From NCBI GenBank assembly GCA_963971405.1, contig OZ020485.1, forward strand, positions 5,084,001 to 5,148,000: a stretch of DNA of 64,000 bases. Direction: 5' to 3'. Numbering within the stretch: the stretch's first letter is position 1; each line of letters begins with the position of its first letter. The stretch is from Psococerastis gibbosa. Taxonomy: Eukaryota; Arthropoda; Insecta; Psocodea; Psocidae. A program made the position numbers and the translations under genes. The notes under the pieces were generated by a model that was not told where the DNA came from, searched no databases, and worked only from the letters and a program-made list of their open reading frames with translations. Positions 1,409 to 53,078 of the stretch are shown piece by piece.

Positions 1409-1610
1409 ATGGATCTTCTTTTTTTTGAGGTCACAATCTTAACGATTAGTTGCCAGCAACTCCCTGCATATCATCCTCCAGCTCCCTCGGTACTGCGCCT
1501 TCCTCTTCAGTTCTTGGTACCTTCGAGCTCCTGCGTCCTTCTTCAGTTGATACTTCCACTAGCTGTGCCCTCAATGATGGTGTCTACCAGATTTTCTTGT
1601 CTTAATAAAT
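1409..1610. repeat. Dispersed repeat fragment (shared with 25140-25290)
   Basis: The order of words 'tcacaat-t-aacgatt-gttg-cagcaactc' then 'cctccagctc-ct-ggt-ctgc-cctt' recurs near 25150-25280. It is probably a LINE-derived remnant, but no reading frame survives and the family is not identified. Confidence 0.4.
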
Positions 1611-1998
1611 GCCCTACTCATTTTAACGTCTGCATTTTATATTACCCCGCACACATTCAGGTTAAGGGGGCCTACAAAATAATTTGTTACGCCAATCATT
1701 TTAGAAAAATATACGAATTGTTATTATTATTTAAATGATTTATATCGTATGATTTTAATGATACTGCCGATAATTAGTAGATAACCACCAAATTGGGGCA
1801 AAAGACACAAGAAGTGTTGTTAAATCTGTAGATGTATTCCAATAGATCGCTGTGTTGGTTAAGAGTTTAACTCGCTTTAACCAAGGCAGAAGTGCGTTTA
1901 GCTAACACGCTAGCGCCGGATAGCTGAGTTTTCGACGAATGTTAACTTAACTCAACTTAGCACACTTAGCTAGATTTAACTATTAGTATAATATACAT

Positions 1999-2001
<3 letters not shown>

Positions 2002-2031
<30 letters not shown>
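2002..2031. repeat. (TA)n microsatellite
   Basis: About 15 uninterrupted TA units are seen directly. Confidence 0.95.
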
Positions 2032-2032
<1 letters not shown>

Positions 2033-2331
2033 CTCCAGCGCCGTGAATAGGTACTCTCATTGTACTATTATTACTAATTAAATAAATAAATAACTATATA
2101 TATATTCACCATAAATTATTATTATTATTAGTGGCAAATTGTGTGTATCTCGGTTTCTTTATCATCTAACAGCTACTATACTAACCTACAAATTACTTAC
2201 AATACCTGGTGCTACCAACTAAATGAATCTAGATGAGTTAGGGTTAATAAATTGTAAGAGGGGTCTGAATCTAAGGCCTTATCTTCTTCTTTTTGAGGCT
2301 TTGGTACACTCAGCCCGACCCCATTAGATAT

Positions 2332-2501
2332 TGTAGGGTATGTAAGAGTGTCGTGCGCCACTGGATGTGGCGCATGCGCAGGACAGTCTCGGGTGTGTTG
2401 AAGCTTGGAATGGTTCTTCTTTTTGTAATGTTTCTTAAATCAAATAAATAAACTATGTAATCGGGGCGTATCGTGTATTTAATACAATTCATCTCCCTAT
2501 A
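2332..2501 (+). repeat. 5' LTR (170 bp)
   Basis: It matches 6969-7141 almost base for base. It contains a perfect 7-bp hairpin (GCGCCAC at 2355-2361 with GTGGCGC at 2367-2373, 5-nt loop) followed by a T-rich stretch, and an AATAAA poly(A) signal at about 2443-2448. The LTR is very short for the family. The ends TGTAGGG/CCCTATA are an imperfect inverted repeat, with final TA rather than CA. Confidence 0.93.
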
Positions 2502-2503
2502 TT

Positions 2504-2521
2504 TGGGGGCTCGTCCGGGAT
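2504..2521 (+). other. Primer-binding site, tRNA-Pro type
   Basis: TGGGGGCTCGTCCGGGAT is the complement of the 3' end of animal tRNA-Pro including CCA. It sits two bases downstream of the 5' LTR, where minus-strand priming begins. This is the same primer choice as in murine-leukaemia-type retroviruses; I know of it less often in arthropod Ty3/gypsy elements. Confidence 0.9.
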
Positions 2522-2710
2522 GTGTGGTGTATCGGGGAAGTGAATTGTGTGCTGTGGAGGCATCCAGGCATGTGAGTAGAACTTGTGACTGGGACGATAT
2601 AATGGCGCTGTCATGTTATAGCAGCAGGCAGAGTACGGTGGTTCGTGTAATAAGGGCGTAAGTTAGTTGCAGTGGCGTCTCCTATCATATTCTTCATCAA
2701 ATTTTTTTTA

Positions 2711-5700
2711 ATGATGGCGTGCCTGGGGGATGTAAGGAGTATTAAAAAAGCTGTTCTATACACAAAGACAAAGACTTTGAAGCAGTTTTTTGAATTCTTA
2801 TATAATGATCAAGCGTTTAATAAAGCTGAAATATTGGCGTTTTCTGGATTTGAATATGAGACACAACAGCTGCAGGACAAAAAGGCAGAGCTGCTTGAGA
2901 TGAAAAAGTGTGACCTTGTGGCTTTTTGCATTTTGTTGGGCATCAGTTTTGAAGGTAGGAAAGATGAGATAGCTGATCGGTTGATGGTACTTCTCAATAA
3001 TGTGGGTACATACGTTCCGGAGGATAAAGACGAAGACGATGAAGACGACGGTGATCATGAAGACGATGACCACGACAAAGACGAAGACGACGGTGATCAT
3101 GATGAAGACGATACTAAAGATGCAATTTCTGCCAATACAATTCCTAAAAGAGCTAACGAAGACGCGATACAGCTCCTCACCTCATTGGCTAGCCGTGTTG
3201 GCGTTTCATTCCATGACGTCCAAGATAGTATTCGCCTATTTGACGGTTCAGATAGGATTACCGTCGAAAGTTGGGTTGAAGAGTTTGAAGAAATGGCGAC
3301 TACTATGCATTGGGACTCACTTCAAACGTTTGTGTTTGCTAAAAAATCATTAAGAGGCGTCGCCAAGCTATTCATTGAGAGTGAACGAGGTATAAAAACG
3401 TGGCCTCAACTGAAAAGAATTCTGTTAATGGAGGTTAAAACGCACACGAGCAGTATGCGCCTCCATGAGTGTATGAAAGAGCGAAAAAAGCAAAAATCGG
3501 AATCAGCCGTTGAGTATTTTCTGGAGATGAAGAAAATTGCAAAGTCGGGGTCACTCCATGATGGTGATTTAATGCAATATGTGATCGATGGCATGACGGA
3601 CGATTATGGTGGTAAGGTGATGTTATACGGCGCTAAGACGCTCACTTCGTTTCGTGACAAGCTGAAAGACTATGATATTTTGGCTACGAAAAGCCGAAAG
3701 GTGGTGAAACCTCCGGATGTTAAACCTGTGAAGAGGCGGGAAGACAGTCACGTCAACAAGAATGGGGAAAGACCCGAGCATTGTTTTAATTGTGGCAATA
3801 AGGGTCATAAATCGACGGAATGTCCGTACAAGGCTGATGGTCCTAAATGTTTTAAATGTAATTCTTTTGGACACATGGCCAAATATTGTCCACAGACAGT
3901 ACTGGAGTCTGCCATATGCAGTCGACCGGACGAGAGTGGCATGTGTAAAGAAGTTCTCGTGGAAGGCATACCAATTGTTGCGCTCATCGATACCGGCAGT
4001 CAACTGACCCTTTTAAAAGAAAGTCAGCATGTTCTAATGGGGAACCCAGAGTTAAAGGCATCGGATGTTCAAGTACTTGGAATTGGCCATACCCTTGTCA
4101 GGTCCATGGGCTTTATGGACACTAAAGTAAGCATAGATGGTGCTACTTTCCGGACGAAGATTCATGTCTTGCCCAATGACGCATTACGAAGACCTATGAT
4201 AGTTGGACGTGATGTCACTGATCAAACCGTTATGAACATTGATCATGGAAGGGTTACTATTGCGCAGAATACCATTTCAAATGGCTCAGACAACTGCGAC
4301 GATATGTTTGGGTGCTTTAATGTGGAGGAAGTACCCGGACCTTCAGTTAGTTTGGTATCGAATGACCAGTTTCGCGCTGAGGCTCTCCACATGATGCATA
4401 ATTACGTGCCTCAGAAAAATAAAGACTGTCCTATTAAGATGCGTGTTGTAGTTAAAGATGAGACACCTGTCTACTGTGCTCCAAGAAGACTGTCTTTCAA
4501 AGATCGTGACATCGTTGATGCTCAGGTGGAGGTGTGGTTAAAAGATGGCATTGTTCAACCAAGTGTGTCAGAATATGCTAGTCCTGTTGTCGTTGTACGG
4601 AAGAAAGACGGATCTCCGAGGGTCTGTGTCGATTTTCGTAATTTCAACAAAAAGGTATTCCGTGATCGTTTTCCACTGCCGGTAATGGAAGACCAGCTGG
4701 ATCGTTTAGTGGGCGCTAAGGTGTTCACCACTTTGGACCTTAAGAACGGGTTTTTTCACGTACCTGTTGAGGCGGACAGCCGTAAATATTTGGCATTTGT
4801 TACGCACAAGGGACATTGGGAATTTTTGAGGGCTCCCTTTGGGTACTGCAATTCACCGCCAGTGTTCCAACGCTTTGTGAACACAGTGTTTCGACAGCTC
4901 ATTATTAGTGGTGATATCATTACATACTTGGATGATTTAATTCTTCCCTCAACAACTTATAAGGATTGTATGAATAAACTGCAAACTGTCCTAGACACAG
5001 CTTCTCTGTATGGCCTTGAGTTTAATTTAAAGAAATGTAGACTGTTGGAAAGTGAAGTTGAGTTTCTGGGACATCGAATTCGAGAAGGACAAATCTTCCC
5101 GTCAGAGGAAAAGACGCTTGCCGTGAAGCAATTTCCTGAACCCAAAACACAAAAAGCCCTCCAATCATTTATAGGTTTAACGTCGTATTTCCGTAAATTT
5201 GTGAAAGACTATGCGCGTATTGCAAAGCCACTCACCGACTTATTGCGAATCGACAATAGTAAAGTGACTTTTGGGCAAGAAGAGAAGATCAGTTTTGAGA
5301 CTTTAAAGTGCGTGTTGTCGAAAGAACCAGTGCTTTGTATTTACGATCCTAAGTTGGAAACAGAGTTGCATACCGACGCATCTCAAGATGGATTTGGTGC
5401 CCTGATGCTTCAGCGACAAATGGCTGATAACGCCTTTCACCCTGTTTATTATTACAGTCGCAAAACTTCGCCTGCTCAAAGGAAGTACACGAGCTACGAA
5501 CTCGAGATCCTGGCAGTGATTGAAGCAGTGAAGAAATTTCGGGGTTACCTGCATGGTATTCATTTTACTATTGTGACAGATTGCGATGCCTTTAAGAAAA
5601 CGATGGACAAGAAGGATCTGTCAGCACGAGTGGCCCGTTGGGCTTTGCTACTACAGGATTTCGACTGTGTGGTGGTGCACCGCGCTGGAAAGCGACTGTC

Positions 5701-6973
5701 CCATGTGGATGCATTAAGTCGTTACCCTTCTGCAATGAATGTTGAGGATGGAATCGGACCTCAAATCGAGCAGTGCCAATCTGAGGACGACGACCTTCAA
5801 AGAATTAAGACTCTCTTGTCACATGGTCCTCACGAGGACTTTCTACTTAGGAACAACATTCTGTATAAATTTGTTGACGGTACAGAACTGCTGGTGGTTC
5901 CCAAAAATCTGCAGACAGAAGTCATCAAGAGAGCTCATGAAAATGGCCATTTTGGCTTAAGAAAAACTGAGGAACAAATCAAACAGATGTACTACATACC
6001 AAAGTTGCCCGAGAAAATTACTAATATTCTGAGAAACTGTGTGCTGTGTATTTTGAAGAATCGAAAAGAAGGAAAAAAAGAAGGATTTCTGAGCCCGATA
6101 AATAAGGGAGACACCCCGTTGGACACGTACCATGTCGACCACTTGGGTCCACTGGAATCCACGCATAAGAGGTATAAGCACATCTTGGTCGTCGTCGATG
6201 CTTTTACCAAGTATGTATGGCTGTATCCTACTAAATCCACATCGACCGCTGAAGTCCTTGACAAGCTCAACTTACAGAAGTCGTTATTCTCAAATCCACG
6301 CCGCATTATCAGTGATGGCGGTACGGCTTTCACGTCAAAGGAGTTTGCAGAGTACTGCACGGACAACCAAATCCAGCATGTATTGATAACTACGGGACTA
6401 CCCAGAGCAAATGGTCAAGTTGAACGTGTCAATAGGTCACTGATTCCAGTTTTGGCGAAGCTCTCCCACGATGATCCTACTAAGTGGTATCGTTTTGTAC
6501 CCCAGGTTCAGCTGAGTCTTAACTCTACGTCGCATCGAAGCACAGGATTTTCACATTTACAACTTTTGCTGGGAGTCCCTCCAAGGACGCTGCCCGATCA
6601 AAACGTCCTTGATCTGCTACAATACGAGCACGAGACCGATTTTATGAATAGACGAGCAGACCTACATAGTTTGGCAAAACACCAAATCCAGGTGGTGGCT
6701 AATGAAAACCAGAGGACCTACAATCTGCGACGGAAACCACCTTCTGTTTATAAAGTTGGCGACTTCGTCTCGGTCAAGCGGACCCAGTTTGGGCCTGGCC
6801 TCAAACTTAAATCAAAGTTCTTGGGTCCATATCGCATTTGTTCAGTTCTTAACGGACAATTTCAAGTCGAGAAGATTGCTGGGGAGGGTCCCCTTTTGAC
6901 GACGACGACTGTTGAATTCCTCAAGCATTGGCCCACATCCGGGGGGGATGTGGCGCAGGATGGCCGAGTGTAG
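2711..6973 (+). CDS. gag-pol: Gag-Pol polyprotein of Ty3/gypsy retrotransposon
   Basis: This single 1420-codon frame encodes the capsid, protease, RT/RNase H and integrase. I start it at the ATG pair at 2711/2714; the frame opens upstream at a GTG (2672), but homology to DEK begins right after the ATGs. In order it holds: DEK/SAP-like domain, about residues 5-97; Asp/Glu-rich tract, about 105-136; Gag capsid region; two CCHC knuckles (CFNCGNKGHKSTEC at ~357, CFKCNSFGHMAKYC at ~379); aspartic protease DTGS at ~427; RT with YLDD at ~739; RNase H (HTDAS at ~885, SHVDALS); integrase with HHCC zinc site, catalytic Asp1143, Asp1202 and Glu1238 (35 residues between the last two); and a GPY/F motif (FLGPYRI). 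Gag and Pol share one frame, so no frameshift is needed. All catalytic residues are intact. The stop codon (6971-6973) lies inside the 3' LTR. Confidence 0.95.
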   Translation: MMACLGDVRSIKKAVLYTKTKTLKQFFEFLYNDQAFNKAEILAFSGFEYETQQLQDKKAELLEMKKCDLVAFCILLGISFEGRKDEIADRLMVLLNNVGTYVPEDKDEDDEDDGDHEDDDHDKDEDDGDHDEDDTKDAISANTIPKRANEDAIQLLTSLASRVGVSFHDVQDSIRLFDGSDRITVESWVEEFEEMATTMHWDSLQTFVFAKKSLRGVAKLFIESERGIKTWPQLKRILLMEVKTHTSSMRLHECMKERKKQKSESAVEYFLEMKKIAKSGSLHDGDLMQYVIDGMTDDYGGKVMLYGAKTLTSFRDKLKDYDILATKSRKVVKPPDVKPVKRREDSHVNKNGERPEHCFNCGNKGHKSTECPYKADGPKCFKCNSFGHMAKYCPQTVLESAICSRPDESGMCKEVLVEGIPIVALIDTGSQLTLLKESQHVLMGNPELKASDVQVLGIGHTLVRSMGFMDTKVSIDGATFRTKIHVLPNDALRRPMIVGRDVTDQTVMNIDHGRVTIAQNTISNGSDNCDDMFGCFNVEEVPGPSVSLVSNDQFRAEALHMMHNYVPQKNKDCPIKMRVVVKDETPVYCAPRRLSFKDRDIVDAQVEVWLKDGIVQPSVSEYASPVVVVRKKDGSPRVCVDFRNFNKKVFRDRFPLPVMEDQLDRLVGAKVFTTLDLKNGFFHVPVEADSRKYLAFVTHKGHWEFLRAPFGYCNSPPVFQRFVNTVFRQLIISGDIITYLDDLILPSTTYKDCMNKLQTVLDTASLYGLEFNLKKCRLLESEVEFLGHRIREGQIFPSEEKTLAVKQFPEPKTQKALQSFIGLTSYFRKFVKDYARIAKPLTDLLRIDNSKVTFGQEEKISFETLKCVLSKEPVLCIYDPKLETELHTDASQDGFGALMLQRQMADNAFHPVYYYSRKTSPAQRKYTSYELEILAVIEAVKKFRGYLHGIHFTIVTDCDAFKKTMDKKDLSARVARWALLLQDFDCVVVHRAGKRLSHVDALSRYPSAMNVEDGIGPQIEQCQSEDDDLQRIKTLLSHGPHEDFLLRNNILYKFVDGTELLVVPKNLQTEVIKRAHENGHFGLRKTEEQIKQMYYIPKLPEKITNILRNCVLCILKNRKEGKKEGFLSPINKGDTPLDTYHVDHLGPLESTHKRYKHILVVVDAFTKYVWLYPTKSTSTAEVLDKLNLQKSLFSNPRRIISDGGTAFTSKEFAEYCTDNQIQHVLITTGLPRANGQVERVNRSLIPVLAKLSHDDPTKWYRFVPQVQLSLNSTSHRSTGFSHLQLLLGVPPRTLPDQNVLDLLQYEHETDFMNRRADLHSLAKHQIQVVANENQRTYNLRRKPPSVYKVGDFVSVKRTQFGPGLKLKSKFLGPYRICSVLNGQFQVEKIAGEGPLLTTTTVEFLKHWPTSGGDVAQDGRV
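2717..3010 (+). other. DEK-like (SAP-containing) domain at the Gag N-terminus
   Basis: The encoded segment shows, in the same order and spacing as the N-terminal DNA-binding domain of DEK, an LGDV start, a Lys/Leu-rich helix ending in FLYN, the FSGFEYE motif, a KKAELLEMKK helix, and a SAP box (LGISFEGRKDEIADRLM). From memory, human DEK has LGDI, LLYN, FSGFPFE and a SAP box with SG...ELVKRI at matching places. DEK binds chromatin and structured DNA. In a Gag this could tether particles or integration complexes to chromatin, which is inference. An acidic stretch follows, as acidic tracts also occur in DEK. Confidence 0.75.
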
Positions 6974-7141
6974 GGTATGTAAGAGTGTCGTGCGCCACTG
7001 GATGTGGCGCATGCGCAGGACAGTCTCGGGTGTGTTGAAGCTTGGAATGGTTCTTCTTTTTGTAATGTTTCTTAAATCAAATAAATGTTTAACTATGTAA
7101 TCGGGGCGTATCGTGTATTTAATACAACTCATCTCCCTATA
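6969..7141 (+). repeat. 3' LTR (173 bp)
   Basis: It is the same sequence as 2332-2501 apart from a 3-nt indel after ATAAAT and about two substitutions. A clear polypurine tract is not present immediately upstream; the nearest purine run is the G7A at 6941-6948, about 20 bases away. Confidence 0.93.
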
Positions 7142-7169
7142 ATATTAAAAAAGTTTAAAGAAGTTTTAA

Positions 7170-7618
7170 GCTGGCTATGCACGAGGGCTCCAAACGGACT
7201 CGCGCCAAGTCAAATGGCGCGTCCTGTTCCATTTGGCGTTAGCGCCATTTAGAGGGATCATCACGACTACGCTGAACCAGTCGCTCCAAATCTTTCAAAT
7301 TGTACAGTGTGACGATACGGAAGAGGTGGTACTTTCACACTGTACAATTTTAAAGATTTAGAGCGTCCTGTTCCATTTGGCGTTAGCGCCATTTAGAGGG
7401 GTCATCACGACTACTCTGAACCAGTCGCTCCAAATCTTTCATATTGTACAGTGTGACGATATGGAAGAGGTACTTTTACACTGTACAATTTGAAAGATTT
7501 GGAGCGACTGGTTCAGCGTAGTCGTGATGACTTCTCTAAATGGCGCTAACGCCAAATGGAACAGGGCGCGCCATTTGGCTTGGCGCGAGTCCGTTTGGAG
7601 CCCTCGTGATTGGCCAGT
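7170..7618. mobile_element. Foldback MITE with TTAA target duplications (piggyBac-like)
   Basis: The left end GCTGGCTATGCACGAGGGCT is mirrored by the right end (reverse complement ACTGGCCAATCACGAGGGCT). TTAA lies outside each end (7166-7169, 7619-7622), as piggyBac transposases produce. The arms run for well over 100 bp. The left arm is tandemly duplicated with a period of 144 bp (7219 and 7363 onward), and each copy holds its own inner hairpin. There is no coding capacity. Assignment to piggyBac rests on TTAA only. Confidence 0.75.
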
Positions 7619-7622
7619 TTAA

Positions 7623-8766
7623 GAGATCTTGTCACGACGAATTTATGGGTATGTATGGTGTGTAAATAGTCTGTTAGTTTTAATTTTTGAATATTGTACT
7701 TTTTTTCAGATAAATTTGTAATTTTATATAACGTTGTAGTACTATATTTATTCTGGGTTAATTGTAGGACCTACCGGTCCGAAATTCGTCCATACGGAAA
7801 ATAAAGACAATTTTCTTTCTTCCTTTTTTTTTTGAAATGCCAAAAATTCTCCCAAATGGAAAATATCTAGCAATTTTCTTTTTACCCACATCTTTCTTTC
7901 AACTAGGGTAGCTCGAGGTCGAGGAAACCCAAACGGACTGCTAAAGATATTCTGCAACGAATATGTTTGCTCTTTAATGCTAATAGTTTACATACACCGT
8001 AGTAAGTTTTAAGGGTTTCAAAGGAATTTTCTGCAAATATTATAGCAGCAGAAACCCGGCATATTTCCCCCCCCCCCCTGAAATTGCATTCTTGGAAAAT
8101 CCAATATGGCAAGTGGAAGTTACGCTATCAAAAGGTAAAGAAAATACGTAACTGCCCACCGGCTTCCCATACAACCCTCCCCTAACTTTCCCGAACCTTA
8201 TTACTTTCAAAGCAACGCCAATGGCATTTTCATTTGATATAACAAAATAGAACCAATAAGCCCTAAGGCATAATACATTTACCAATAAAAATTGCCTCTT
8301 AAAAGTCGGATAAGGGCAAAAGATAATAAGTGGTTACGCGGTATTGGCTTGGCAGATAATAATGGGCTGGATATTAATATTTTACGTTGTCCGGAAAATA
8401 ATTTTATATCAGAAGCGATAAAACAAAAAATAAGGAAACCGCGCTCGTAGAAATCTAATTTTGAAGCATCGATCCTCGGTCCAACTCAAATTATAAGTTT
8501 GGGAGTAATGGGTTATTGATGAAGTTGTTGCACTCCCTTGGGTTGGAGTTGTACACGTACTAGACTCACGTAGTCTACTTTATCATCTCGCCTTGGATTT
8601 GTTATAGCTCCCTTCTCTATTGCCAAACTTGTATAAATATTTCAGGCCAGTGGCAGGGAGCTTAAACGATATTTTACGTCTAATAAATTGTATGTTTCAG
8701 TGTTATTCTCGAGTTTGAAAATACAGCCGACGAGTACCTTATTAAATATAGAGATAGCCCTTTTGT
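7623..8766. other. Gene-free stretch
   Basis: No gene is supported. A C homopolymer lies at about 8067-8078. The segment near 7785-7830 ('ggaaaataaagacaattttctttcttcc') is related to 36085-36115, so it is part of a dispersed repeat. Confidence 0.5.
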
Positions 8767-51201: not shown

Positions 51202-51600
51202 TAACAAATTGCAACTTAAACTAAAAGAATTGAACAAAATAGGGAAAATAAAAAAAGAATTAAAAAAATACTTAATTTTAAATACAGACTATTAGCCATT
51301 TCATTATACATATAATTTTACATCAATATATAATAATATAAATAATAAATATATATAAATACATCCTTCAGAGTTCAGAAGGATCTCACTCATTGCAGAA
51401 AGCTAGAGTGAGTACTATATAATGGTTTATTATTATTAATTATTATTAATTATATTTATATCTTGCAGAGCCACTGCACTATGATCGCTCGATAAGCGGA
51501 AGCTTGAGCGTGATAATGCTGATTAATAACAAATTGTTGTTCTCAATATATGCACCTTGTCCGGGGTTACCGGTCAAGGAAAAAAGTGAAGTGAAAAGTG

Positions 51601-51633
<33 letters not shown>

Positions 51634-53078
51634 CCGACTATCTCTATGAAAATAAATTGCTAAGTGAACATCAATATGGATTTCAGAAAAATAAAAGTGC
51701 AGAATTATGCCTGAGTGAATTTTGTGACTATATAAATGGGCAACTACACATTAATAACCATGTCTTAGTACTTTTTATTGACTACTCAAAGGCTTTTGAC
51801 GTTTTAAGCAAAGAAGTGGTACTAGCACAATTGAAAAGCTTGGGAGTAGAGGATATCGAGATGGAATGGTTTGAAAACTATCTGACGGGGCGTCAAGTTG
51901 TCGTGAAAGTGTGTGACTCAACAAGTAACCCCGGAGACTGGGCAACAGGCGTACCACAAGGTAGTAAAATTGGCCCAATCCTCTACTTAGTAGCTACTAA
52001 TAAAGTACTGCAGACATTGAGGAAAGGCAAGGGGTTTATGTTCGCCGATGATACGGCTATAGTAGTGGCCTGTAAGGAAATTAACAAAGCCAATAGCATT
52101 CTCCAAAAAGTAATTAAAGATATTCAAAAGATATCTCATGATATTGGGCTCACAATAAATTGTGCAAAGACCAAAATAGTACATATAAGAAACAGGGGGC
52201 CTAAACAACGGAAAAGTAAGTTCACTTTCCATAAACATGAGTGCTTACACAATGATGAAAGCTCAACAAGATGCGAATGCAGCGATTTCATAGATATAGT
52301 TGAGGAGCATAAATATCTTGGTGTTTGGATTGATGGGAACTTTAACTGGCAAACACAAATTGACTCAGTGTGTAAAAAGCTAAGATCGGCATGTGGAGTA
52401 CTACATAAATTGAAATATGGAGTTCCTTTGAAAGCTAGAAAGATGGTGTACCATGCACTAGTGGAATCAGTTATCAGTTATGGGATCACATCATGGGGAC
52501 GAGATAATAACACTTACATACAAAAAATACAAAAAATACAAGATAGAATTATAACTAATATGTATTCGGAAAAATTTAACAAAAAATACAATGATACATT
52601 TTCGAAATATCAACATGCTGAATTATTAACGTGCAATAAAATCTTAAAATTTAAAATTATAAAACAAAATTATTTCGACGATAAATATAAAGCAGCGGAC
52701 AAAACTAGATATACGAGGCAACAACAAAGGTTACAGATACCAATTACATACAATAAATATGGGGACAGGGAAAATAATGTGCTAATAAAAAAATTGTTCA
52801 ACGAAATCCCCCAAGCTATAAAAAATGAAGAAAAAATTGGGAAAGCAAAACAAGTAATAAAAAAATGGTTGCTAGAGACTCAATAGGCAAGACCTATTGA
52901 ACCCACAATACCCTTAAAAGTTGCAACATTTAGTGAAGAAGACGCCACCCCCGACAAGCGGAAGCTTTGGGGTGGTCGTGAATTATAATTAGTCTATTTT
53001 TATTTTGAATTAATATAATCCCCTAGCTGGTGGAGTAACCAGTTAGGAAAAAAAAAATTATTGTTATTATTAGGGGCC

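Follow-up and report, generated by a model that had tools for sequence, protein, structure and literature searches.

A Ty3/gypsy clade of the insect Psococerastis gibbosa with a DEK-like domain at the Gag N-terminus

Judged from sequence, three families of Ty3/gypsy retrotransposons in Psococerastis gibbosa, here called A, B and C, form a clade whose Gag carries an extra domain that looks like part of a chromatin protein. The domain stands at the N-terminus and resembles the pseudo-SAP/SAP domain of DEK. The best overall explanation, to which an even chance is given, is an acquired DEK-homologous Gag domain that serves as a putative chromatin tether. The ancestor of at least three Ty3/gypsy families would have gained the domain as the first part of Gag, ahead of the capsid, with an acidic linker behind the domain. 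There, the domain would let Gag, or a capsid-bearing pre-integration complex, hold chromatin by contacting dyad and linker DNA of the nucleosome, with the acidic tract possibly touching histones. Such a Gag-side tether would work in the manner of MLV p12.

The element that led to this clade lies in a 64,000-nucleotide stretch of the genome (contig OZ020485.1, positions 5,084,001 to 5,148,000), termed the window. It is intact and flanked by a 4-bp target-site duplication, ATAT, at 2328..2331 and 7142..7145; the features inside are all on the plus strand. The 5ʹ LTR (2332..2501, 170 bp) and the 3ʹ LTR (6969..7141, 173 bp) differ by two mismatches and three gap columns. The primer binding site read from the sequence, TGGGGGCTCGTCCGGGAT (2504..2521), is presumed to resemble the tRNA-Pro site of MLV. 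Gag-pol is encoded by a single intact open reading frame of 1420 amino acids (2711..6973), whose stop codon falls just inside the 3ʹ LTR. Pfam matches in this frame comprise CCHC, RVP, RVT_1, RNase H, Integrase_H2C2 and rve, with neither a chromodomain nor a DEK_C domain among them. These place two CCHC zinc knuckles of the nucleocapsid at 3782..3889, the aspartic protease at 3950..4228, reverse transcriptase (RT) with RNase H at 4595..5662, and the zinc-binding and core domains of integrase at 5897..6397. Upstream of the knuckles is a capsid-like region, delimited by eye at 3203..3700 from an alignment of the three families, within which Retrotrans_gag matches at 3383-3598 below the Pfam cut-off (E 0.0017). 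The paired LTRs, the 4-bp duplication, the order PR-RT-RH-IN and the CCHC-containing Gag identify a member of Ty3/gypsy (Metaviridae). Elsewhere in the window, a 473-bp foldback palindrome (7158-7630; 153-nt arms, 92% complementary, plus nested repeats) begins 16 bp past the 3ʹ LTR, and a 478-codon open frame at 51450-52883 resembles, by eye, the RT of a non-LTR retrotransposon.

The DEK-like domain comprises residues 1-97 of Gag (2711..3001), with a best-aligned core at residues 17-95 (2759-2995), and was delimited from PDB matches, a hidden Markov model (HMM) and hhalign. An earlier note on this DNA had drawn attention to the motifs LGDV, FLYN, FSGFEYE and EGRKDEIADRLM, all of which are found at the place and in the order claimed. 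The Asp/Glu tract that it described after the domain is likewise borne out: 24 of 31 residues are acidic (residues 104-134, 3020..3112), and the underlying DNA is a degenerate 9-bp repeat. Its further statement that the alignment with DEK lacks large gaps is almost correct: the loop between FLYN and FSGF contains a gap of three or five residues, depending on the method.

Several comparisons connect this region to DEK. When the single sequence was searched against the PDB, DEK entries were the top three of six matches at E up to 10 (E 0.0039, 0.055 and 0.056), and element residues 17-95 aligned with human DEK 100-183. A profile of the three families gave DEK as the best three of nine PDB matches (E 3.8e-5, 2.0e-4 and 2.1e-4). 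A DEK HMM built only from human DEK and the host's DEK, with no element sequence included, was scored against 3 real and 15,000 shuffled sequences. Among these 15,003, the top place goes to family A (E 7e-6) and the next, just above the shuffles, to family B (E 0.012); family C alone ranks 186th (E 23) and is insignificant against DEK. Profile-profile comparison with DEK by hhalign extends over 94 columns with a score of 40.2 and a probability of 91 (E 9.3e-7, counted for a single comparison), whereas the best of 200 column-shuffled controls scores 18.5. Both the FSGF core and the SAP box contribute to this alignment, and a sequence match over both halves of the DEK pseudo-SAP/SAP domain is found for family A and the three-family profile, and more weakly for family B. 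The DEK likeness of the Gag N-terminus is thus confirmed at the level of sequence, well beyond chance, and the element domain is very probably homologous to the pseudo-SAP/SAP domain of DEK.

A more restricted homology has also been considered, in which Gag gained only a SAP half and the likeness of the first half to DEK reflects convergence or chance. Pfam indeed detects the SAP half alone (residues 66-96, 2906..2998), and below the cut-off: SAP_new25 matches family A at E 4e-4, family B at E 3.5e-4 (with SAP PF02037 at E 0.008) and family C at E 0.13. The insignificance of family C alone against DEK points the same way, as does an element of a distant Ty3/gypsy group, L046, whose Gag starts with a SAP-like box and has no FSGF half (L046 1174-1473, G000 C12:15448673-15448972; SAP_new25 E 0.0096, below the cut-off; 21 near-identical matches over all 100 residues). 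However, much of the colinear 94-column alignment falls beyond the SAP box, as does the FSGF core, and no shuffle reaches the DEK matches of family A and of the three-family profile. Moreover, the L046 box aligns with the three-family profile at a probability of just 2.6, and a PDB search with it gave nothing at E up to 10; the box is perhaps a separate gain. Homology confined to the SAP half is accordingly improbable, and homology over the whole domain is preferred.

Structure prediction was less informative. Single-sequence AlphaFold2 models of the domain reached pLDDT values of 58 and 52, too poor to test the fold, probably due to the lack of an alignment. At this low confidence, the predicted string of six helices fits the DEK helices named in PMC12263440, and DEK is absent among the best 50 matches listed in each fold search made with the first of these low-confidence models.

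A search of the insect's own genome (409 Mb, 68 contigs) returned 35 matches to the DEK-like domain. Sixteen belong to family A, 11 of them identical across all 136 residues, 12 to family B and four to family C, at least one of which (C15) is only a piece; the remainder are a degraded A copy in two pieces and a short fragment. Family A alone as query retrieves B (E 2e-10) and C (E 8e-7), and C is additionally linked through B (35% identity, E 1.5e-10). The common order in all three is domain, acidic tract and capsid. Identity between the families is 27-34% in the domain, 38-49% in the capsid and 55-62% in RT-RNase H. That an F-[ST]-G-F core is retained in A, B and C at this level of domain divergence, relative to that of RT, suggests selection on the fold. 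Family A moved recently, as 9 of its 11 scorable copies have no substitution between their LTRs (one of the nine with 14 gap columns). On C12, a tandem array of a family-A-like RT fragment (G000 C12:44738794-44765125; 13 RT matches, mostly 2066 bp apart) adjoins a family-A copy with the DEK-like domain. Translated with the invertebrate mitochondrial code, the COX1 of this assembly resembles, by eye, that of an insect. The nuclear genome also contains pieces of mitochondrial COX1, two adjacent ones at C14:11085363-11086704 making up nearly the whole gene and others being short.

The earlier note had recognized that the domain might instead be a general Gag fold shared by many unrelated Ty3/gypsy elements. 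In an RT search in which 95 of 1276 candidates were scored, families A, B and C stand at ≥61% identity, the next groups at 41% and all others at ≤37%. Of nine elements from these other groups (RT ≤41%, same genome), some of which look related to one another and one of which is L046, none has the domain; the best E values are 1.1 with the three-family profile and 0.74 with the DEK HMM. Within this genome, the absence from all nine argues against a general N-terminal Gag fold of Ty3/gypsy unrelated to DEK, which is highly improbable even though databases may sample Gag N-termini poorly and residues 1-102 have no homologue at E up to 1 in protein searches (44 and 36 candidates). A single gain in the common ancestor of A, B and C is the simplest reading. 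Beyond this genome, a Gag alignment search found one Menopon gallinae protein among 6499 candidates. This protein is identical at 75 of 154 positions in the capsid-nucleocapsid, and its model begins downstream of the DEK-like region. The viral contigs and prokaryote genomes searched gave no match. An unrelated feature was seen by eye in L039 (G000 C20), from a Ty3/gypsy group at 41% RT identity: a repeated motif of about 25 residues, FSHGDFRKENQPSCLSG..., located 3ʹ of the protease on the reverse strand, in the open frame 1543-3399 of that strand.

The origin of the domain was approached through the host's own DEK. DEK_C (PF08766) occurs at three places in the genome, none of which coincides with an element position. 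One of them, L019 (C12, minus strand), also has DEK-SAP exons (first exon E 2.4e-6, second exon E 0.098) and is taken to be the host DEK gene. An intron lies in the middle of its DEK-SAP domain, whereas the element domain is intronless. The family A domain is identical to host DEK at 20 of 95 positions (21%) and to human DEK at 24 of 79 (30%). It had been proposed that the element captured a host DEK exon set, and the comparison does not bear this out, since the element is no closer to the DEK of this host than to that of human. The element domain is, on these identities, not a recent copy of this host's DEK gene, and any capture would be old or from another source; the comparison involves two DEK sequences, which cannot separate a DEK origin from a shared older ancestor. 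Of the interpretation first offered, then, the DEK-like domain that opens Gag, the acidic tract and the absence from nine elements of other groups have stood, and the capture from host DEK exons and the targeting of chromatin are hypothetical.

Whether the domain would still grip nucleosomes can be judged from its likely contact residues. In human DEK, the domain contacts nucleosomal DNA at the dyad and at both linkers through nine basic residues, R107, K111, R116, K144, K124, K125, R153, K158 and R168 (PMC12263440). At these nine positions, a basic residue is kept at four in family A, three in B, two in C and six in host DEK. R116, K125, K158 and R168 are non-basic in all three families, K125 in host DEK as well; R107, K124, K144 and R153 are still basic in family A. 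The net charge of the domain is 0 in A, -2 in B and +3 in C (95-98 residues each), compared with +10 for human DEK (84 residues) and +3 for host DEK (105 residues). The fold is likely retained, and a human-style grip on the nucleosome by the element domain is doubtful, because few contact residues are kept and the charge is low. Histones could instead be the target of the acidic tract.

The loss of most DNA-contacting basic residues and the low net charge also favor a role apart from chromatin. The DEK-like fold may have been kept as a protein-protein or assembly module in place of a matrix, or as an RNA-packaging module, that no longer binds chromatin, with the acidic tract as a flexible spacer. 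The invariant columns, mostly hydrophobic, glycine or cysteine, agree with such a role, as does the position of the domain before the capsid. Set against it are the four positions still basic in family A and the general habit of SAP modules, which are mostly nucleic-acid binders. This alternative is a considerable possibility, appreciably below even. A tethering function is put somewhat short of even and, by analogy, is favored over an assembly or RNA role.

The analogy comes from retroviruses. Gag-borne chromatin tethers are found in gammaretroviral p12 and in foamy virus Gag, and MLV p12 contacts nucleosomes directly, in competition with the foamy virus sequence (PMC6021111). These precedents count for a tether, as does the lack of a chromodomain in the open frame; they also precede the placement of a tether in Gag rather than in integrase, of which the earlier note knew no description. 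Counted against the overall explanation are the lack of a DEK match for family C alone, the reduced basic contacts and low net charge, the poor structure models with no DEK among the listed fold matches, and the lack of a palindrome association in family B.

This last point arises from the insertion sites. Eleven of the 16 family-A copies were scored, the others (L027, L029, L031, L032 and L035) being without an exact match at the LTR edge. Exact 4-bp duplications flank all 11 and have the form [CA]TA[TAG] in nine; in family B, AT-rich 4-bp duplications flank all nine scored copies (10 given). Five of the 11 family-A sites are in (three) or within 20 bp of (two) a foldback inverted repeat of complex sequence. 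Control placements in 86 kb of sequence fall within 20 bp of such a foldback in 20 of 400 cases, by a distance measure (≥60 bits, span up to 700) that was chosen afterwards; within 400 bp, the same measure gives 5 of 11 versus 53 of 400. By BLAST self-complementarity of 1200-bp empty sites, any inverted repeat is present in 5 of 11 versus 39 of 150 window pieces, and repeats of at least 100 bits in 4 of 11 versus 19 of 150, a weak contrast. Control draws overlap one another and sample a small number of places. Folding energy showed no excess in the 200-bp empty sites of the 11 family-A copies. Near-palindrome insertion was seen at 0 of 10 family-B sites (9 of the 10 copies plus L009), with C1:49504956 left out for want of a 5ʹ LTR edge and L014 for want of a second LTR edge in the sequence covered. 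Because family B carries the same domain, the palindromes lend no support to a preference of the domain for structured DNA. The family-A association is a lead, a hint rather than evidence for DEK function. That a DEK-derived Gag domain steers integration to nucleosomes or structured DNA, and so biases family A toward foldback palindromes, is unlikely, and the weaker contrast in the 1200-bp BLAST control lowers its standing further.

Should the domain bind chromatin, a retrotransposon Gag, rather than integrase, would house a folded chromatin reader, beside the peptide tethers of MLV and foamy virus, and young insertions would allow tests of how Gag-side contacts guide integration. Otherwise, there is still a clear chromatin-protein-like domain at the front of Gag, kept while three families diverged deeply. 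Among the papers listed in literature searches, which did not cover most subscription journals, none was seen to describe a DEK or SAP domain in Gag.

Comparison with known systems makes clear what is shared and what is distinct. With human DEK (PDB 2JX3, 9L1X and 8KCY), the element domain shares motif order and spacing over about 95 residues, the F-x-G-F core and the SAP box, and both proteins have acidic stretches. Unlike DEK, the element domain opens a Gag, is without DEK_C and has fewer DNA-contacting basic residues; in host DEK an acidic open frame also precedes the domain, whereas the acidic tract of the element only follows it. Chromoviruses, Ty3/gypsy elements with a chromodomain at the C-terminus of integrase, are likewise Ty3/gypsy elements carrying a chromatin-reader-like module, but theirs is in integrase, and no chromodomain was found in the window element. 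A host-type domain fixed in a lineage is also known from Phalaenopsis Ty3/gypsy elements with an AlkB-like m6A demethylase; there, in plants, an enzyme is encoded in an extra open reading frame, whereas here a DEK-like domain is fused to Gag (PMC9289625). Fifteen extra domains are counted in that study, some of them described by name, and neither DEK nor SAP is among these (PMC9289625). MLV p12 and prototype foamy virus Gag, like the putative tether of the element, place the chromatin contact in Gag (PMC6021111). These viral tethers are short nucleosome-docking sequences, whereas the candidate tether of the element is an N-terminal DEK-like domain of about 97 residues.
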